Of a DNA stretch of 61,725 nucleotides, positions 29,701-36,634 are shown one piece after another. This DNA comes from Blautia sp. (GTDB taxonomy: Bacteria; Bacillota; Clostridia; Lachnospirales; Lachnospiraceae): the NCBI GenBank assembly GCA_017515325.1, contig JAFWGA010000033.1, positions 1 to 61,725 of the forward strand. Direction: 5' to 3'. Position 1 is the stretch's first letter, and every line of letters begins with the position of its first letter. The position numbers and the translations under genes are program-made. Under the pieces are notes generated by a model, which worked only from the letters and a program-made list of their open reading frames with translations, made no database searches and was not told the origin of the DNA.

Positions 29701-31005
29701 ATGAAGGCAATAGGAATTGATATTGGTACGACATCCATCAGCATAGTTGTGCTGGATTTAGTGAAAAAAAAGGTCCTGGCCTCTCGGTGCATGGACAATG
29801 ATTCCTTTTTGCGCGCAGAACAAGAAGGTCAGGGCATCCAGGATCCCACCCTCATCTTTAAACGCACGATGGACGCGCTCGATGAAATCATCGGGAACTA
29901 CCCTGATTTTTCCGCGATCGGCATTACCGGCCAGATGCACGGGATCGTCTATATCGATGGCATGAGGCGTTTCGCCAGCCCTCTCTATACCTGGCAGGAT
30001 GAAAGCGGAAACCGTCCGGATGCCCAGGGAAACACAATGGTGGAACTGGTCAGGCAGCGCTATGGTATTCCTGTGGCCTCAGGCTATGGACTGATCACCT
30101 ACCTCTGCCATAAAAGGGAGGGGAAGGTTCCTGCCAATGCCCGGTATATGTGCACCATTATGGATTACATTGCGATGCGGCTGTCAGGAAGGCCGAAGCC
30201 CCTCATGCACGTGAGCAACGCAGCCAGCCTTGGTTTTTACGATGTAAAAGAAGGCTTGTTTCAGACAAAGATACTTTCAGAGCTGGGTGTGGATCTCTCC
30301 CTGATCCCTGAGGTGACCTCCCACTTCGAAGTACTGGGAAGCTTCAGGGGCATCCCCGTATACACAGCCATCGGGGATAACCAGGCCAGCTTTCTGGGTG
30401 CTGTGGGAACACAAGAAAATTCGGTCCTGGTCAATATGGGAACGGGGGGGCAGATTTCTGTTCTTTCCGATACCTTTTTTGAGGCTCCGGGCATCGAAGC
30501 CCGCCCTATTTACGATGGACACTATCTGCTGGCCGGCTCCTCTCTGTGCGGAGGGAGGGCTTATGCCGTTGTCGAGCATTTTTTCCGTACCTTTGCTGTC
30601 TATGCCGGTCTGCCGGATATCCCCCAGTATGACCTGATGGCCCGCATTCTCAGCTCCGAAAAGGAAAGCAGTCCCCTGAAGATAGAAACAACCTTTAAAG
30701 GAACCCGCTTCGATCCGGACAAAAAAGGTTCCATCATAGGGATCACAGAGGAAAATCTGACTCCGGTCCACCTGATCCGGGGTACCCTGGAGGGTATGGC
30801 CCAGGAGCTGTATGATATGTATCACCAGATCTGTGAGGGAACCAATCTCCATTGCGACAGACTTTATGCCTCCGGAAACGGTCTGCGCAAAAATCCTGCC
30901 CTCATGGAGATTTTCCAGAAGAAATTTCAGATGCCTCTCCTGCTGGCGCCCTTTGAAGAGGAGGCTGCCTGCGGGGCCGCCATCAGCACAATCCTGAAGG
31001 GATAA
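29701..31005 (+). CDS. FGGY-family carbohydrate kinase, sedoheptulokinase-like
   Basis: The 434-residue product has the two actin-fold halves of FGGY kinases: the N-terminal phosphate loop GIDIGTTSISIVVLD, the substrate region TGQMHGIVY and WQDESGNRP, the IGDNQASFLGAVG motif with the catalytic aspartate, and the C-terminal ATP site VNMGTGGQ, ASGNGLRKNP and EEEAACGAA. The QMHG and GDNQASF patterns recall sedoheptulokinases. It is slightly shorter than the 480-520 residues usual for FGGY enzymes. It may phosphorylate the sugar imported by the 20571-25355 transporter, which is inference from proximity. Confidence 0.85.
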   Translation: MKAIGIDIGTTSISIVVLDLVKKKVLASRCMDNDSFLRAEQEGQGIQDPTLIFKRTMDALDEIIGNYPDFSAIGITGQMHGIVYIDGMRRFASPLYTWQDESGNRPDAQGNTMVELVRQRYGIPVASGYGLITYLCHKREGKVPANARYMCTIMDYIAMRLSGRPKPLMHVSNAASLGFYDVKEGLFQTKILSELGVDLSLIPEVTSHFEVLGSFRGIPVYTAIGDNQASFLGAVGTQENSVLVNMGTGGQISVLSDTFFEAPGIEARPIYDGHYLLAGSSLCGGRAYAVVEHFFRTFAVYAGLPDIPQYDLMARILSSEKESSPLKIETTFKGTRFDPDKKGSIIGITEENLTPVHLIRGTLEGMAQELYDMYHQICEGTNLHCDRLYASGNGLRKNPALMEIFQKKFQMPLLLAPFEEEAACGAAISTILKG

Positions 31006-31037
31006 TGATATCGTTGAACATTACACCAGGACAAAAT

Positions 31038-31688
31038 ATGGCAGAAAATAAAACAACAAAGAAAAGCAGCAAAAAGAAAAATTACTATGCCGTCCGCAAG
31101 GGCCACACAACCGGTTTATTTACCTCCTGGCCGGAATGCCAGGAAGCGGTTCGCGGTTTCTCCGGCGCAGAATTTAAGGGATTTTATACCAAAGAGGAGG
31201 CTATGGCTTATCTTACCGGTGAAAGCCTCTTCCTGCAGGAGGAGACAGGTCCGGACGAGAACGATCTGATCGTCTATGTGGACGGAAGCTTTGATGCCTC
31301 CCTGAAGCGCTATGCCTACGGTTGTATCTTCCTGCTTCCGGAGGGCGAGGAAGCCCTAAGCGGCTGCGGAAATGACCCGGGGCTCCTCCCCTTACGCAAC
31401 GTGGCGGGGGAAATGCTCGGAGCCATGAAAGCGGTCCAGTGGGCCATCCGCCACCAATTCGGGTCTGTCCAGCTTCGCTATGACTACAGCGGGATAGAAA
31501 TGTGGGTTACCGGCGTGTGGGAAACCAAAAACGAGTATACCCAAAAGTATGCCGCCTATATGAGGGGCTGCCAGGAAAAGATCGCCATTTCCTTCAAGAA
31601 GGTGGAGGCCCATTCCGGCAACCCTCTCAATGACGCCGTCGACCAGCTGGCCAAGGATGCTCTGCGCGCCGAACCCGGGAGCCACTGA
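31038..31688 (+). CDS. Ribonuclease H with N-terminal viroplasmin-type domain
   Basis: The 216-residue product (from ATG 31038, AGGA upstream; an ATG at 31005 that overlaps the kinase stop is possible) has a basic tail, then a small hybrid-binding domain (YYAVRKGHTTGLFTSWPEC to FKGFYTKEEAMAYL, about 17-60). The RNase H fold follows: D in VYVDGSFD, E in VAGEMLGAM, D in RYDYSGIE and D in PLNDAVDQLAK give the DEDD set. It cuts RNA in RNA-DNA hybrids. Cotranscribed with the kinase by position only. Confidence 0.9.
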   Translation: MAENKTTKKSSKKKNYYAVRKGHTTGLFTSWPECQEAVRGFSGAEFKGFYTKEEAMAYLTGESLFLQEETGPDENDLIVYVDGSFDASLKRYAYGCIFLLPEGEEALSGCGNDPGLLPLRNVAGEMLGAMKAVQWAIRHQFGSVQLRYDYSGIEMWVTGVWETKNEYTQKYAAYMRGCQEKIAISFKKVEAHSGNPLNDAVDQLAKDALRAEPGSH

Positions 31689-31713: not shown

Positions 31714-32991
31714 TCACCCCTTGCGGAACACCTTCTCCATACCGGCTACGCAATGGCGGAATTCCTCCTCCGGCAGATAATCCTGCAGATCATAGATCAG
31801 CTTATTCACTACCTTCCCCACCGCCGTATCGATCTGCCCCAGCAGAATCTCTTTTTCCTTCTCCTCCACCGGGAGCTTACGCACTGCCTTACCCAGCCTG
31901 AGATTTACGCTGGCCACGGCGTCCTCCTGAATACACTGGATACGAGGCCGAAGATCCCGCGTCCCTTCCCAGAGATGATATTCCCGGATATATTTGTCCA
32001 TGATTTTCTCTGCCTGTAGATACGCTTTGGCATTTTCCTCCGAATCTGAGGTGGAGAAGTCATCAATATCATAGAGGGTATAAGGAGGAAGCTCCCGGAT
32101 TCCGGGTTCGATATCCCGGGGGACAGCCAGATCCAGGAGGAAGGTCTTATGGACTGCCTGACATGCCCTGAGTTTCTCCAGGCGAATGGTATAATGGGGA
32201 CTGGCAGTCGCGCTTACCACCACCTGGCACTGGGGAATGTACTGGTAGCGGTCATCATAGGCAATGGGACGGCATCCCTGAGGCAAAGCGACATTTCCGC
32301 TGTGATACTGCCGAAGGGTCATCATCACATCCGCACCGTACTGCAGGAGAGTAGTGGCAGCCAGGCGGCCGTATTCTCCGTTTCCGATCACCATACATGT
32401 CTTGCCCGCAACAGGAAACCCCTGATCCTCCAGCCGCTGAACCGCCTGCTCGATAGCGGAAGCATTAGCCCTGCTAAAGACGACTTCTGTCTTGATCTTT
32501 TTGGCGGCTGTGACGGCTGTCCGGAAAAGTACCTCCATACAGCTGCCTGCCATTTTCTTGTCCCGGGAAAAATCCAACGCCTGTTTGACCTGGGTCAACA
32601 CCTGATCCTCCGCCAGGATGGCGGAACGCAGGCCGCAGGCCAGATAAAAAAGATGCGAAACTGCTCTCTCACCCGAGCGGAAGGCAAAATAAGGCGCATA
32701 CTCCTCCGGTGTCAGGCCCGCATAGGAACAGAAAAGTCCAAGCAAGGGGTCTTCCGGGTATACCTTTCCTTGTTCTGCCTCCTTGAGCCAGATTTCCGGC
32801 AGCATCTCGTCATCGCTCGTATTCACCCATATCTCCAGGCGGTTGCAGGTCGACAGGATTACCACACCCTCCACTGCAAGCCTTTCCCTGATCTCTCCCA
32901 TCAACTCTGTCAGTCTTTGCTGCGTCAAAAACAGAGAAGACCTGACAGATACCGGTGCCCGGCTATGGTCTGTCCCGATCATTGTTACCAT
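31714..32991 (-). CDS. hemA: Glutamyl-tRNA reductase
   Basis: The start at ATG 32991 follows AGGGAGGGG; a longer frame runs back into the type B repeat. The 425-residue product reduces glutamyl-tRNA to glutamate semialdehyde, the first step of tetrapyrrole synthesis. The catalytic cysteine is C49 in STCNRLEIWVNT. The NADPH domain has VIGNGEYGRLAATTL and the family block ATASPHYTIRLE. The C-terminal dimerisation helix is present. It is the last gene of the unit that begins with cobI, 69 bases after the surface-protein gene, and no other hem gene is in the window. Confidence 0.92.
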   Translation of the reverse strand: MVTMIGTDHSRAPVSVRSSLFLTQQRLTELMGEIRERLAVEGVVILSTCNRLEIWVNTSDDEMLPEIWLKEAEQGKVYPEDPLLGLFCSYAGLTPEEYAPYFAFRSGERAVSHLFYLACGLRSAILAEDQVLTQVKQALDFSRDKKMAGSCMEVLFRTAVTAAKKIKTEVVFSRANASAIEQAVQRLEDQGFPVAGKTCMVIGNGEYGRLAATTLLQYGADVMMTLRQYHSGNVALPQGCRPIAYDDRYQYIPQCQVVVSATASPHYTIRLEKLRACQAVHKTFLLDLAVPRDIEPGIRELPPYTLYDIDDFSTSDSEENAKAYLQAEKIMDKYIREYHLWEGTRDLRPRIQCIQEDAVASVNLRLGKAVRKLPVEEKEKEILLGQIDTAVGKVVNKLIYDLQDYLPEEEFRHCVAGMEKVFRKG

Positions 32992-33014
32992 TTTCTTTCC
33001 CCTCCCTAATATAT

Positions 33015-33045
33015 CGACCTGTGCGGTCACCAAAGCCAATACCAC
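33015..33045 (-). repeat. Type B repeat upstream of hemA
   Basis: The minus strand reads GGTATTGGCTTTGGTGACC then GCACAGGTCG. The right half matches the 13705 copy, including the GACC-N5-GGTC dyad; the left CGGTCAC arm is changed. It is 24 bases before the hemA start, a position fit for an RNA structure or protein site affecting hemA. Confidence 0.55.
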
Positions 33046-33060
33046 ACAGGTAGAAGCTGT

Positions 33061-34152
33061 TTACGAACGCCTTTTTGCCAGTTGGTTGACGACCCCGCCT
33101 ACTGCCATGATGGCCATTGCGATAAACAGAACCCGCTTTGCCGCTTCCTGCGGAATACTACCTTTTCCGCCTATCCTGTCTGAATAGAAGGTCAGGGTAT
33201 ATTCGATCTCCAATGGATCTCCCATTGCTGTCGTATCCGCAATCACATACATAGGTTCATCCATCACTGTGATGGGTATGGTAAAGGAAGAATTCCCTCC
33301 ATCTGTCGTCTCATTGTCGTATCTGATTCCGTCAACCAGCATATAATCATAATAGGGGCTGCTCCACAGTAGCCTGGCGTAGGCTCTCCCCTCCGAAACA
33401 ATCAGCCAGGTGGGTGAGGTCACCCCAGCCCGTCCGCTGCCTCCGGTAAGGGATAGCTCGATCGCGTATTCCCCGTCAGGCCGATCCAACCGGACTGCCT
33501 CGGCCTGGGCGGACACCGTCACGGGAACCGCCTCTTCCGCCTTTGTCTCCTCTTCCGGATGATTCCGGCTGTACTCTCTCATTGCCTTCTCGATCTTTTT
33601 ATAGTCCGGAAGGGGAAAGGCCAGTGCATCTGCCGGAATACCTGCGGCATCAAAAAGGAGCAGCCTGTCATACCATTTACTGCGGTTTTTGCTGTAGGCA
33701 GCGCATTCCAGTCCGACATTGAGCGCAGCAACAGGAACCGTAAAGGTATAATACCCTTCTCTCTCCACAAAGGGGATATAGTCCTCAAGAGGAGCCGCCG
33801 CTGCTGCTTCCCCGGAGCCCATATAGACAAAGAGATAGCTCTTGCTGTACATATGAAGCTCTGCCTCCATCCTCTGGTCCTTCACCGTGAGCACGGCCTC
33901 CAGTACACGGAAAAAAGGAGAGCTGCACTCTACACTCAATGTATAAATCCCGTCCCGGATGTCCCGGCCATAGATCGGTACCATCCCATAGCTTCCTATG
34001 GCTTCGCCCGGCGCCCTTTCCGTGGCAAAGGCAACGGCACTGTGCTCGGCATCCGCCAGAATCCTTTCCGGCGATACAGCCATCGCCAAAAAAGCGAAAA
34101 GCGATAGCCATGTCAGTCTTTTTATCATTCGCATCATTCTCTTTCTTTCCAT
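33061..34152 (-). CDS. Membrane-anchored surface protein with two beta-rich domains (NEAT-like?)
   Basis: I start at ATG 34152, two bases after the permease stop. The 363-residue product has a signal peptide (LTWLSLFAFLAMAVSPERILA) and domain 1 (about 25-165; DIRDGIYTLSVECSS, KSYLFVYMG, the tag SKNRSKWYDRLLLF). A linker rich in Glu is followed by domain 2 (about 205-320; DGEYAIELSLTGGSGRAGV, YARLLWSSPYYDYMLVDG) and a C-terminal membrane segment ending AKRRS. The tags recall NEAT-like haem or metal-handling surface domains of clostridia, but I cannot confirm the family. Position between an exporter, cobI and hemA suggests a tetrapyrrole or metal role. Confidence 0.65.
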   Translation of the reverse strand: MERKRMMRMIKRLTWLSLFAFLAMAVSPERILADAEHSAVAFATERAPGEAIGSYGMVPIYGRDIRDGIYTLSVECSSPFFRVLEAVLTVKDQRMEAELHMYSKSYLFVYMGSGEAAAAAPLEDYIPFVEREGYYTFTVPVAALNVGLECAAYSKNRSKWYDRLLLFDAAGIPADALAFPLPDYKKIEKAMREYSRNHPEEETKAEEAVPVTVSAQAEAVRLDRPDGEYAIELSLTGGSGRAGVTSPTWLIVSEGRAYARLLWSSPYYDYMLVDGIRYDNETTDGGNSSFTIPITVMDEPMYVIADTTAMGDPLEIEYTLTFYSDRIGGKGSIPQEAAKRVLFIAMAIMAVGGVVNQLAKRRS

Positions 34153-34153
34153 G

Positions 34154-34894
34154 CTAAAGGGTCTTTTTTCTGTAAATAAATCCAACCGCAATCAGGGAAA
34201 AGACCAGCAGATACGCCAGAAGCAGCATACAGCCCGGCAGAATTCCCTCTGGTACGCCCATGGCAATGCTCCGGATCATCCCGCTGGCCTGGGACAAAGG
34301 AAGCAGGGCCACTGCCTGCCGGAAGCCTCCCGGGATCTGGTCCGTTGAGAAAAAGGTATTGCAAAGAAAGGACATGGGCATAATAATATAGGAGGTATAG
34401 CGAGGGGCATCCGTATAACTCTTGGCCAGGAAAGAGAGCACCAGGGCGATGGTGGAAAAAACGGTTCCGTTCAGAAACATGATAAAAAAAGACAGTCCGT
34501 TAAAGACAAGGCCGGTACGAATGGGCATAGTCAGTAGAAGAATGATTCCCCCGGCATACATGCCACGAAGGCTGCCCCCGATGATCTGGCCAAGAATAAA
34601 CTGCCACAGCGGCGTGGGGGAAACCATGATCTGATCCAATGCCTTCTCATACAGCCTCTGAACGCTCATATTCTGGGCAACGGCACTGAAGCTGCCGGTC
34701 ATCGTCGACATGGCCACAAGCCCCGGGATCAGGAAATTCAGATAAGGCTCTCCGTGGGAAGTCGTCTGGATCCCCAGGCCAAAGATCACAAGATACATCA
34801 GGGGAGATACCATGGCTGCCATGGTAATCTTATAAAAATCCCGCTTGAATTCCGTCCACTTTTCCCATAAAACTGTGATAATCCCCATGGTCAT
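34154..34894 (-). CDS. ABC-2 type permease
   Basis: The 246-residue product has six membrane segments and the ABC-2 pattern: YKITMAAMVSPLMYLVIFGL, GLVAMSTMTGSFSAVAQNM, ALDQIMVSPTPLWQFILGQIIGG (tag ALDQIMVSP). It is the membrane half of an exporter of the DrrB/NodJ kind. It overlaps the ATPase gene by four bases (ATGA) and ends two bases before the surface protein. The substrate is unknown; the cobI/hemA context favours a tetrapyrrole, metallophore or the neighbouring surface protein's ligand. Confidence 0.88.
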   Translation of the reverse strand: MTMGIITVLWEKWTEFKRDFYKITMAAMVSPLMYLVIFGLGIQTTSHGEPYLNFLIPGLVAMSTMTGSFSAVAQNMSVQRLYEKALDQIMVSPTPLWQFILGQIIGGSLRGMYAGGIILLLTMPIRTGLVFNGLSFFIMFLNGTVFSTIALVLSFLAKSYTDAPRYTSYIIMPMSFLCNTFFSTDQIPGGFRQAVALLPLSQASGMIRSIAMGVPEGILPGCMLLLAYLLVFSLIAVGFIYRKKTL

Positions 34895-35727
34895 CCTATC
34901 CCCCGGCCAATCCGCTCTACAAAAACATCCTCCAGATTGGTATTGCGCAAAACCGCCTCCTTCCCTGCCTGGGAAAGAAAGGCGATGGCAGCGTCCCTGT
35001 CCGCGAAATACCTGCTTTGCAGGGTATCCTCTGCCGGAATATCCACGGCAAAGCTGCCCAGTTCTTCGATCAGATGTCCGGGAGTGTCAACGATATCCAG
35101 CTTTCCTTTTTCCATCAGGGCAACACGGTCGCACAGATACTGGGCCTCCTCCATATAGTGGGTGGTCAGAAGAATGGTGAGCTTTTGGCTATGCAGCCGG
35201 CGCAGCAGATTCCACATCTGCCGGCGGGATATGGCGTCCATTCCCGCTGTGGGCTCATCCAGCAAAAGGATCTCCGGCTCTGTCATCAGGGCACGACAGA
35301 TCATCAGCTTGCGCTTCATCCCTCCGGAAAGATGCCTCACCGTCCGATGCTTAAAGTCTGTCAGGCCGGTGAAGGCAAAGAGCTCCTGGGTTTTCTGCCG
35401 GATCTCCTTGCGGGAAAGATAATACAACCGGCCCTGATATTCCATGGCCTCACTCATGGTCATATCCTGGCGCATGGAATATTCCTGTGTAATCACACTA
35501 AGCCTGCGCTTTTCCCTGGATGCCTTCCGGGTCAGAGGGACTCCGTCCATCAGGATCCTTCCCTCGCTGGGCAGCAGCACCGTGGACATCATACTGATGG
35601 TGGTGGTCTTGCCGGCACCGTTTTGGCCTAAAAGCCCCAGGAATTCTCCTGTCCGGATCGTAAGATTCAGATGATCCACCGCCGTAAAATCCCCAAAGCG
35701 TTTGGTCAGGTCTTTTAGCTCTATCAT
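34891..35727 (-). CDS. ABC transporter ATP-binding protein (exporter, DrrA-like)
   Basis: The 278-residue product has Walker A GQNGAGKTT, Q-loop ITQEYSMRQDM, signature LSGGMKRKL, Walker B ILLLDEPTAGMD and H-loop LLTTHYMEEAQ. A C-terminal extension of about 55 residues matches the DrrA/CcmA type. Its ATG overlaps the cobI stop (ATGA), an arrangement that strongly couples it to cobI. It drives the permease encoded next. Confidence 0.92.
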   Translation of the reverse strand: MIELKDLTKRFGDFTAVDHLNLTIRTGEFLGLLGQNGAGKTTTISMMSTVLLPSEGRILMDGVPLTRKASREKRRLSVITQEYSMRQDMTMSEAMEYQGRLYYLSRKEIRQKTQELFAFTGLTDFKHRTVRHLSGGMKRKLMICRALMTEPEILLLDEPTAGMDAISRRQMWNLLRRLHSQKLTILLTTHYMEEAQYLCDRVALMEKGKLDIVDTPGHLIEELGSFAVDIPAEDTLQSRYFADRDAAIAFLSQAGKEAVLRNTNLEDVFVERIGRGIG

Positions 35728-36419
35728 GACTGGAACTTAGCCTTCTTGGCGATAATCAGAGAAAAGTAGCCGGCTTCATCCGGGATCTCATCTGTACTGC
35801 GGTACACTTTTTCCGTATCCATACCGCAGTTCTCCACTGCCTGGACGGTCTTTCCGCTTTTGCGCAGCTGATCCTTTACCTCCTTCATATGGCTGCCGGA
35901 TTTCATCAAAACGTAGGTTCCGGGAAGGTCCAGGGAATCCTCGGTATCATGAAGCGCCGGCATGACATGTAAGGGTTCATTCCACTCTGTCAGCGGAATA
36001 TTCAGACGGGCGGCAGCAGCGCAGAAGGAGGTAATCCCACTGACCAGGGCCGTTGCATAGCCATCCCTCTCCAGGATCTCCTGCAGATAACTGAAGGTAC
36101 AATACACGGTAGGATCTCCCAGGGTAAGATAGATGACGTTTCTCCCCTGGTCCAGATATTCTTCTATCCGTCTGGCTCCTCTTTCATGGCTTCGGCGGAT
36201 CAGCTCCCGGTCCTTGACCATAGGCATTTCCACTGCTACCAGTTCCTTATCCGCCAATTCCGGAACTGCCTGCACGGCGATTTTGTAAGCCACTGTCTCC
36301 CTGGCCTGCTTTCCCGGAACCATGATCACTTCATTTTCCCGGATGAGCCGTACCGCCTTCAATGTCATCAGCTCCGGATCTCCAGGGCCTACCCCCAGAC
36401 AATATGCCGTTCCCTTCAT
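35724..36419 (-). CDS. cobI: Precorrin-2/cobalt-factor II C20-methyltransferase
   Basis: The start at ATG 36419 follows GAGGAGGTAAA. The 231-residue product has the SAM-dependent tetrapyrrole methylase fold: GVGPGDPELMTLKAV at the start, YLTLGDPTVYCTF in the middle and VSGITSFCAAAARLNIPL (tag GITSFCAAA). CobI/CbiL adds the C20 methyl group in corrin ring synthesis. No other cob/cbi ring gene is adjacent, only the CobO-like gene at 43119. It is first in the cobI-ABC-ABC-surface-hemA unit. Confidence 0.9.
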   Translation of the reverse strand: MKGTAYCLGVGPGDPELMTLKAVRLIRENEVIMVPGKQARETVAYKIAVQAVPELADKELVAVEMPMVKDRELIRRSHERGARRIEEYLDQGRNVIYLTLGDPTVYCTFSYLQEILERDGYATALVSGITSFCAAAARLNIPLTEWNEPLHVMPALHDTEDSLDLPGTYVLMKSGSHMKEVKDQLRKSGKTVQAVENCGMDTEKVYRSTDEIPDEAGYFSLIIAKKAKFQS

Positions 36420-36510
36420 TTTACCTCCTCGTCGATGTCGGTTTCCGCCGCCGGTACTCGACTGTCCCGGTGCTGTAAGCCGGGAAATGTCCTTTGGTTG
36501 CCGGTGCGAT

Positions 36511-36600
36511 AAAAAAGCAGATCCTTTTCGTTCATACAGAAAAGAATCCGCCCACACCTGGTACAGACTGCCCAGGCGCTTTTCCTTGCCTCAAAGTGTC
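36511..36600 (-). promoter_or_regulatory. Structured leader RNA with intrinsic terminator upstream of cobI
   Basis: From the predicted start near 36599 the first 50 bases can form either an 8-bp stem (GCGCCTGG with CCAGGTGT) or a junction closed by ACACTT/AGGTGT with an inner AGGC/GCCT. Immediately after comes a 13-bp terminator stem (GCGGATTCTTTTC with GAAAAGGATCTGC, 36517-36551) and TTTTTTATC. cobI starts 92 bases further on. Mutually exclusive stems before a terminator are the layout of an attenuator or riboswitch. It lacks the cobalamin-riboswitch B12 box, so the ligand is unknown. Confidence 0.55.
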
Positions 36601-36605
36601 GCGTC

Positions 36606-36634
36606 AGTTTACCATGTTATCCAGGCACTGTCAA
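36606..36634 (-). promoter_or_regulatory. Promoter for the cobI-hemA unit
   Basis: On the minus strand, TTGACA (36634-36629), a 17-bp spacer, and TAAACT (36611-36606). Confidence 0.8.

Follow-up and report, generated by a model that had tools for sequence, protein, structure and literature searches.

NEAT domains are haem catchers in iron uptake, and the Isd-type NEAT proteins IsdB, IsdH, IsdX1 and IsdX2 share both the fold and the tandem domains with a predicted membrane-anchored surface protein encoded on Blautia sp. contig JAFWGA010000033.1. The stretch analyzed here comprises 61,725 nucleotides of this contig (the window), and the gene belongs to a minus-strand operon that reads, from 5' to 3', cobI, ABC ATPase, ABC-2 permease, anchored surface protein, and hemA (open reading frame list). 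We tentatively propose that B12 synthesis is supplied with cobalt through a tetrapyrrole shuttle, of which this operon would form the export half. A further likeness to Isd lies in the FecCD permease and Peripla_BP_2 protein of the importer loci described below. As differences, cobalamin riboswitches are found at the relatives' loci here versus iron control in Isd, the present system has a cobalt chelatase and an exporter as partners, the surface protein ends in a C-terminal helix without an LPXTG-like signal (judged by eye), and the iron-ligand Tyr position is replaced in its domain 1.

A second related system is the periplasmic CbiK(P) of Desulfovibrio, for which the consulted parts of two studies describe one B12 element that controls cbiK-cbiL and btuCDF (PMC545781) and a cbiKP riboswitch (PMC11124144). 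The likeness comprises an exported CbiK (PDB 2xvx was matched), CbiL/CobI, a BtuCDF-type importer, and the B12 element; unlike in the present module, no NEAT protein or ABC-2 exporter is described in these parts. According to the former study, cbiK-bearing delta-proteobacteria had no homologues of the cobalt transporters then known (PMC545781).

ABC-2 exporters of the DrrAB/NodIJ type belong to the same ATPase/permease family as the present pair, which differs from them in scoring under the cut-offs of the named subfamilies and in the other cargo expected. The cobalt ECF importer CbiMNQO likewise supplies cobalt for B12, here often with a CbiO-CbiK fusion, but it imports the bare ion, and its proteins are unrelated to the present module. 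FetB of Porphyromonas gingivalis is of the CbiK family and was matched by the exported CbiK of the window genome at 1.2e-44; it differs in being described as a heme-binding protein in the title of its entry (PDB 9b86). The parts of the present system are known families, and their joining is new. Literature searches, with most subscription papers outside their scope, found none on 'cobaltophore' and none joining 'cobalamin riboswitch' with 'NEAT domain'. Among the matches listed, those on cobalamin, cobamide or corrinoid exporters were mostly human ABC transporters or unrelated, and none named a bacterial B12 exporter in the title or at the start of the abstract.

Linkage of the exporter and its near-exclusion with CbiMNQO

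The occurrence of the exporter was surveyed in 116 genomes from 48 genera, using the permease as tracer. It was present in 25 genomes, the window genome and 24 others with 63-80% identity; 26 genomes had reached the permease threshold, of which G014 (39% identity) was excluded by hand. The module therefore recurs, and is not confined to this strain as a refutation named in the original prediction had it. Conservation of the five-gene order, proposed there as a check, was not supported: no fixed order was observed, and the most constant core is the ATPase-permease pair with the anchored NEAT gene. The latter adjoins the exporter in 21 of the 25 genomes, among them G017, where it is located next to the ATPase on a contig that differs from that of the permease. 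In G004 it lies 4.8 kb from the exporter, and the contigs of G011, G040 and G053 end at the exporter. In 17 genomes the exporter has cobI joined to it, and in seven of the remaining eight it is found beside cbiD. hemA follows the surface protein gene in the window only (1/25), and in G002 hemC-hemB follow instead. CbiD was present in all 25 exporter genomes versus 32 of the 39 remaining genus members (p = 0.037).

The surface protein gene followed by hemA was also found in three Coriobacteriia-titled contigs from draft metagenome bins (L036, L037 and L039), with exporter genes visible in two of them. L036 and L039 share the order cobI, exporter pair, CbiK, anchored NEAT, hemA next to importer genes. 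The genes of L036 run in a single direction as CbiK fragment, NEAT, binding protein, FecCD, ATPase, cobI, exporter pair, CbiK, anchored NEAT, hemA, hemC, cobA/hemD, and hemB; L037 contains anchored NEAT, hemA, hemC, cobA/hemD, hemB, hemL, and cbiD. Exporter and importer genes are neighbors in G044, G009 and G035, and gene sets that might make up a secreted metallophore system, with synthesis of a putative ligand, exporter, surface binder and importer, are found together in L036, G044 and G009. The ATPase and permease are nearest to generic DrrA/DrrB and NodI/NodJ-type models, all under the cut-offs, which would fit a drug- or peptide-type ABC-2 exporter merely co-transcribed with B12 genes. 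We consider such a passenger role improbable in view of the NEAT linkage, the position inside B12 gene runs in the Coriobacteriia contigs, and the association with cobalt transport genes in a Pagel-type test.

Cobalt-type CbiM, defined by the lack of a PDGLE domain and usually accompanied by CbiN, CbiQ and either CbiO or a CbiO-CbiK fusion, was found in one of the 25 exporter genomes versus 18 of the 39 others (Fisher p = 2e-4). The type was taken from the sequence itself in 20 loci, with Pfam run on three, and from open-frame length in the remainder; weak hits (G028, G062) and fragments (G025, G032) were scored as absent. Among genomes at least 90% complete and with CbiD, the counts (made by hand) were 1 of 20 with and 8 of 17 without the exporter (p = 0.005). 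Nickel-type (PDGLE-type) CbiM served as control and, again counted by hand, occurred in 7 of 25 exporter genomes versus 10 of 39 others (p = 1.0). A Pagel-type test on a CbiD tree with 51 tips gave the better fit for the dependent model (likelihood ratio 30.3, p = 4e-6; branch lengths clipped, two starts per model, rates left at bounds, and five long or outgroup rows omitted). The CbiD tree requires no fewer than 14 changes of the exporter and nine of CbiM, and two pairs of near relatives, G040/G060 and G034/G015, show the difference expected from exclusion. The exporter thus appears as an alternative to CbiMNQO.

The same near-exclusion would be expected if the ABC-2 pair and the anchored NEAT protein acted in uptake and replaced CbiMNQO for cobalt or a cobalt chelate, with no exported ligand; ligand capture for import is what NEAT proteins do elsewhere. 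A role in uptake is quite improbable, because known ABC-2 transporters export, and the importer loci encode a FecCD importer of their own together with its binding protein.

In the CbiMNQO genomes a CbiO-CbiK fusion, combining importer ATPase and cobalt chelatase, was noted at L171:703-2361 (Pfam on L171 only), and CbiO-CbiK-like lengths and starts were also seen in L173, L178, L179, L180 and L181.

NEAT proteins, cobalamin riboswitches and exported CbiK

The AlphaFold2 model of the surface protein (mean pLDDT 88.3) shows a pair of beta domains besides a C-terminal helix, and both domains matched the NEAT beta-sandwich fold (Foldseek, VIA). By this model the protein is a tandem NEAT fold, as a structure check proposed in the original prediction had envisaged, and no match was obtained to a family with a clear unrelated ligand, which would have spoken against the assignment made there. 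Taken alone, the sequence evidence for NEAT membership is weak. The window protein gave no Pfam match, PF05031 included; 42 of 50 domain-2 members matched PF05031 at E up to 1 (best 3.3e-7), and L095 reached 23.1 bits, below the cut-off of 32.8. Profile searches retrieved NEAT5 chains at E 0.004 for domain 1, but with a GABA receptor as third row at 0.011, and NEAT chains at 0.09 to 0.57 for domain 2, with one unrelated chain among them at 0.15. Anchored relatives carry tails similar to that of the window protein (PQEAAK...GGILN...KKR).

Non-anchored NEAT paralogues share loci with an exported CbiK, a Peripla_BP_2 binding protein, a FecCD permease, and an ATPase. The importer locus of the window genome is located at C3:37-42 kb with a riboswitch at C3:42321-42521, and in some loci (L095, L098) NEAT-like domains are fused to the importer binding protein. 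A cobalamin riboswitch was found within 5 kb upstream of 32 of the 37 non-anchored NEAT genes, as counted after re-filing one anchored G019 gene and with a search that scored only part of its candidates. Thirteen of the 37 genes came from loci chosen with the riboswitch list in view (13/13 hit); in loci chosen before the list, 19 of 24 were riboswitch-preceded. Among the loci from named contigs, 14 of 19 had a cobalamin riboswitch. In G056 and G009 the exporter operon itself is preceded by one.

The CbiK of the importer loci matches PF06180. By eye, a signal peptide or lipobox was recognized at the start of all 19 inspected proteins with an intact N-terminus, and the same 19 keep the His/Glu/His metal-site positions. 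The exported form is the sole CbiK match in 12 CbiD-bearing genomes, several of which are incomplete, with export status assigned from hydrophobicity and visual inspection, G027 and G048 truncated by the end of the contig, and the sole CbiK of G056 not inspected. A search for CbiX in nine of these 12 genomes met only the same CbiK genes. CbiX as a hidden second chelatase was rejected, as all 17 matches in 20 genomes fall within CbiK genes.

YxxxY is the haem-iron motif of haem-binding NEAT domains. This motif, assessed on domain 1 only and in a weak alignment, was not retained: the position of the iron-binding Tyr is Lys or Arg in 38 of 39 ungapped rows, and the second Tyr is mostly kept. In domain 2 of the window protein the iron-Tyr position is probably Leu. 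These replacements, together with a context of cobalamin riboswitches, CbiK and cobI, argue against haem or porphyrin handling, in which the pump would relieve porphyrin toxicity or load haem onto the NEAT protein in an Isd-like manner. We regard this explanation as very unlikely, although it would account for the NEAT fold and for the hemA, hemC or hemB neighbors in the window, in G002 and in the Coriobacteriia contigs. Haem, one of the ligands originally suggested, gives way to a cobalamin/cobalt context, marked by the riboswitches, CbiK, the FecCD-type importer and the rarity of CbiMNQO; the broader assignment to tetrapyrrole or metal traffic is supported.

Very large proteins with NEAT-like domains were seen directly behind cobalamin riboswitches at L091:13385-16600, L105:8069-11374 and L107:5882-9787 (1071-1301 amino acids); a Pfam search of those of L091 and L105, with E up to 0.01, gave no match. 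A protein of 556 amino acids (G000:C45:85274-86944, corresponding to L067:10275-11945) has one NEAT-like domain and a tail like that of importer binding proteins (by eye), and no riboswitch was found within 5 kb upstream of its gene.

A proposed tetrapyrrole route for cobalt

Cobalamin riboswitches usually control genes needed at low B12. If an exporter is turned off by B12 and stands in for a cobalt importer, a part in cobalt supply is its best explanation. According to PMC8123684, CbiK/X acts on sirohydrochlorin and the cobalt form is then methylated; the simplest cargo would therefore be sirohydrochlorin on the way out and cobalt-sirohydrochlorin on the way in. In the proposed shuttle, HemA would feed the tetrapyrrole pathway, and the ABC-2 pump would export an early tetrapyrrole of the corrin pathway, most likely metal-free sirohydrochlorin. 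The exported CbiK, encoded at the separate riboswitch-led locus of the window genome, would insert cobalt outside the cell. The NEAT domains, both beside the pump and in the importer locus, would capture the cobalt-tetrapyrrole and hand it on, by way of the binding protein, to the FecCD-type ABC importer, and CobI would methylate the re-entered compound and so commit it to the corrin pathway.

Alternatively, the pump might release a finished or nearly finished cobamide, which the anchored NEAT protein would retain at the surface to be stored, shared or recaptured. Such a corrinoid exporter would be in line with CbiD in every exporter genome, with cobI joined to the pump in most of them, and with a NEAT family tied to riboswitch-led importer loci that possibly import corrinoids. 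It would leave the near-exclusion with CbiMNQO and the exported cobalt chelatase without a reason, and the riboswitches of G056 and G009 would turn the operon off when B12 is plentiful, a polarity that disfavors overflow export of B12 and fits poorly with the corrinoid release considered in the original prediction, if that release is taken as an end in itself. We rate a corrinoid exporter as unlikely, though not negligibly so.

Several observations weigh against the proposed shuttle. Among the 116 genomes the exporter is limited to one of the 48 genera. The treekit independent-pairs test yielded only three supported pairs, too few to reach significance, G009 has both the exporter and CbiMNQO, and 11 of 27 treed CbiD genomes without the exporter have neither system, so other cobalt routes exist and the exchange is not strict. 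CbtX has been proposed as a cobalt transporter of delta-proteobacteria (PMC545781). A riboswitch within 5 kb upstream was found for only 2 of 22 anchored NEAT genes (counted after the same re-filing), and none was seen in the window. G021 is the single exporter genome among the 12 in which the exported CbiK is the sole match. The loss of a cytosolic CbiK from exporter genomes, as predicted by a strictly extracellular scheme, was not seen: 22 of the 25, the window genome included, have a second CbiK match, and none of the nine second copies inspected has a clear signal peptide, so that chelation may take place inside the cell. G019 has the exporter, yet the only CbiK encoded there appears to be cytosolic. 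The two NEAT domains are acidic, with a median net charge of about -15, which is odd for a binder of a polycarboxylate. The acidic domains, the second CbiK and G019 speak against the simple form of the model.

In its general form the proposal, that some gut bacteria load cobalt onto an exported sirohydrochlorin cobaltophore by means of an exported CbiK, catch it with NEAT proteins and return it through the importer, in place of CbiMNQO import of free cobalt, is conceivable but doubtful. If the shuttle were shown, the system would be of a new kind and would represent the first tetrapyrrole metallophore known for cobalt. It would give exported CbiK proteins a role and open the passage of B12 precursors among gut bacteria to testing; relatives that have the importer and an exported CbiK yet lack the exporter would use the chelate of others. 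A branch of the NEAT fold is placed in the cobalamin/cobalt context of gut commensals, and even if the linkage alone holds, surface and export proteins are named for corrinoid or cobalt exchange.

Operon layout in the window

The single promoter-like site, the five genes and the ATGA overlaps (cobI/ATPase and ATPase/permease) described in the original prediction were confirmed by the open reading frames and a consensus scan; the gap between the permease stop and the surface protein gene is one base, not two as had been claimed. The surface protein stop and hemA are 69 bases apart, and a convergent gene (31005-31688) lies past the hemA end. Because the number of promoter-like sites in the region was near expectation (6 observed versus 4.7 expected), the promoter call rests on its consensus match and position, and a scan match is by itself no evidence of function. 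A search for the cobalamin riboswitch RF00174 5' of the operon up to E 5 gave no match, and a degenerate riboswitch ahead of cobI was rejected on this ground. The cobI start has GAGGAGG ahead of ATG. The exporter pair combines an ABC_tran ATPase with an ABC2_membrane permease as in the ABC-2 exporter family (Pfam), and the nearest NCBIfam model of the ATPase is drrA, with a score below its cut-off.

Table 1. Positions of the operon features in the window.
Feature	Position	Strand	Evidence
Sigma-70-like promoter, TTGACA-17-TAAACT with TG	36606..36634	-	Consensus scan, 10/12 match
Leader, about 185 nucleotides, 5' of cobI	36420..36605	-	No Rfam match
cobI (CbiL), (cobalt-)precorrin-2 / factor II C20-methyltransferase	35724..36419	-	TIGR01467 3e-57, above cut-off; PF00590
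Exporter ATPase, ABC, DrrA/NodI-like	34891..35727	-	PF00005 2.8e-34
Exporter permease, ABC-2	34154..34894	-	PF01061 4.5e-20
Predicted tandem-NEAT anchored surface protein, 363 amino acids, N-terminal hydrophobic helix	33061..34152	-	AlphaFold2, Foldseek, VIA
NEAT-like domain 1, about residues 66-170	33643..33957	-	AlphaFold2 model
NEAT-like domain 2, about residues 222-328	33169..33489	-	AlphaFold2 model
C-terminal helix and basic tail, probable membrane anchor, residues 334-362	33067..33153	-	AlphaFold2 model
hemA, glutamyl-tRNA reductase	31714..32991 (ATG about 32991)	-	TIGR01035 2e-69, above cut-off

Elsewhere in the window genome, neither cobI nor hemA is part of the 13-gene cob/hem run on C3, in which some names scored below the cut-off; further hemA copies were not searched for. 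Besides the cobI of the window, a second CobI-like methylase gene was found on C52 (L103:8399-9115, G000:C52; 46% identical). Its neighbors were named by eye as glyoxalase-like and rhodanese-like genes, and no surrounding B12 cluster was seen. The Clostridiales-1 RNA (RF01699), hinted at by L041 as the operon's own leader, was rejected as a dispersed element. This RNA, of the Rfam type sRNA and seen for example at L041:7600-7763, has 22 matches in the window genome, 42 in G035, and 41 in G066.

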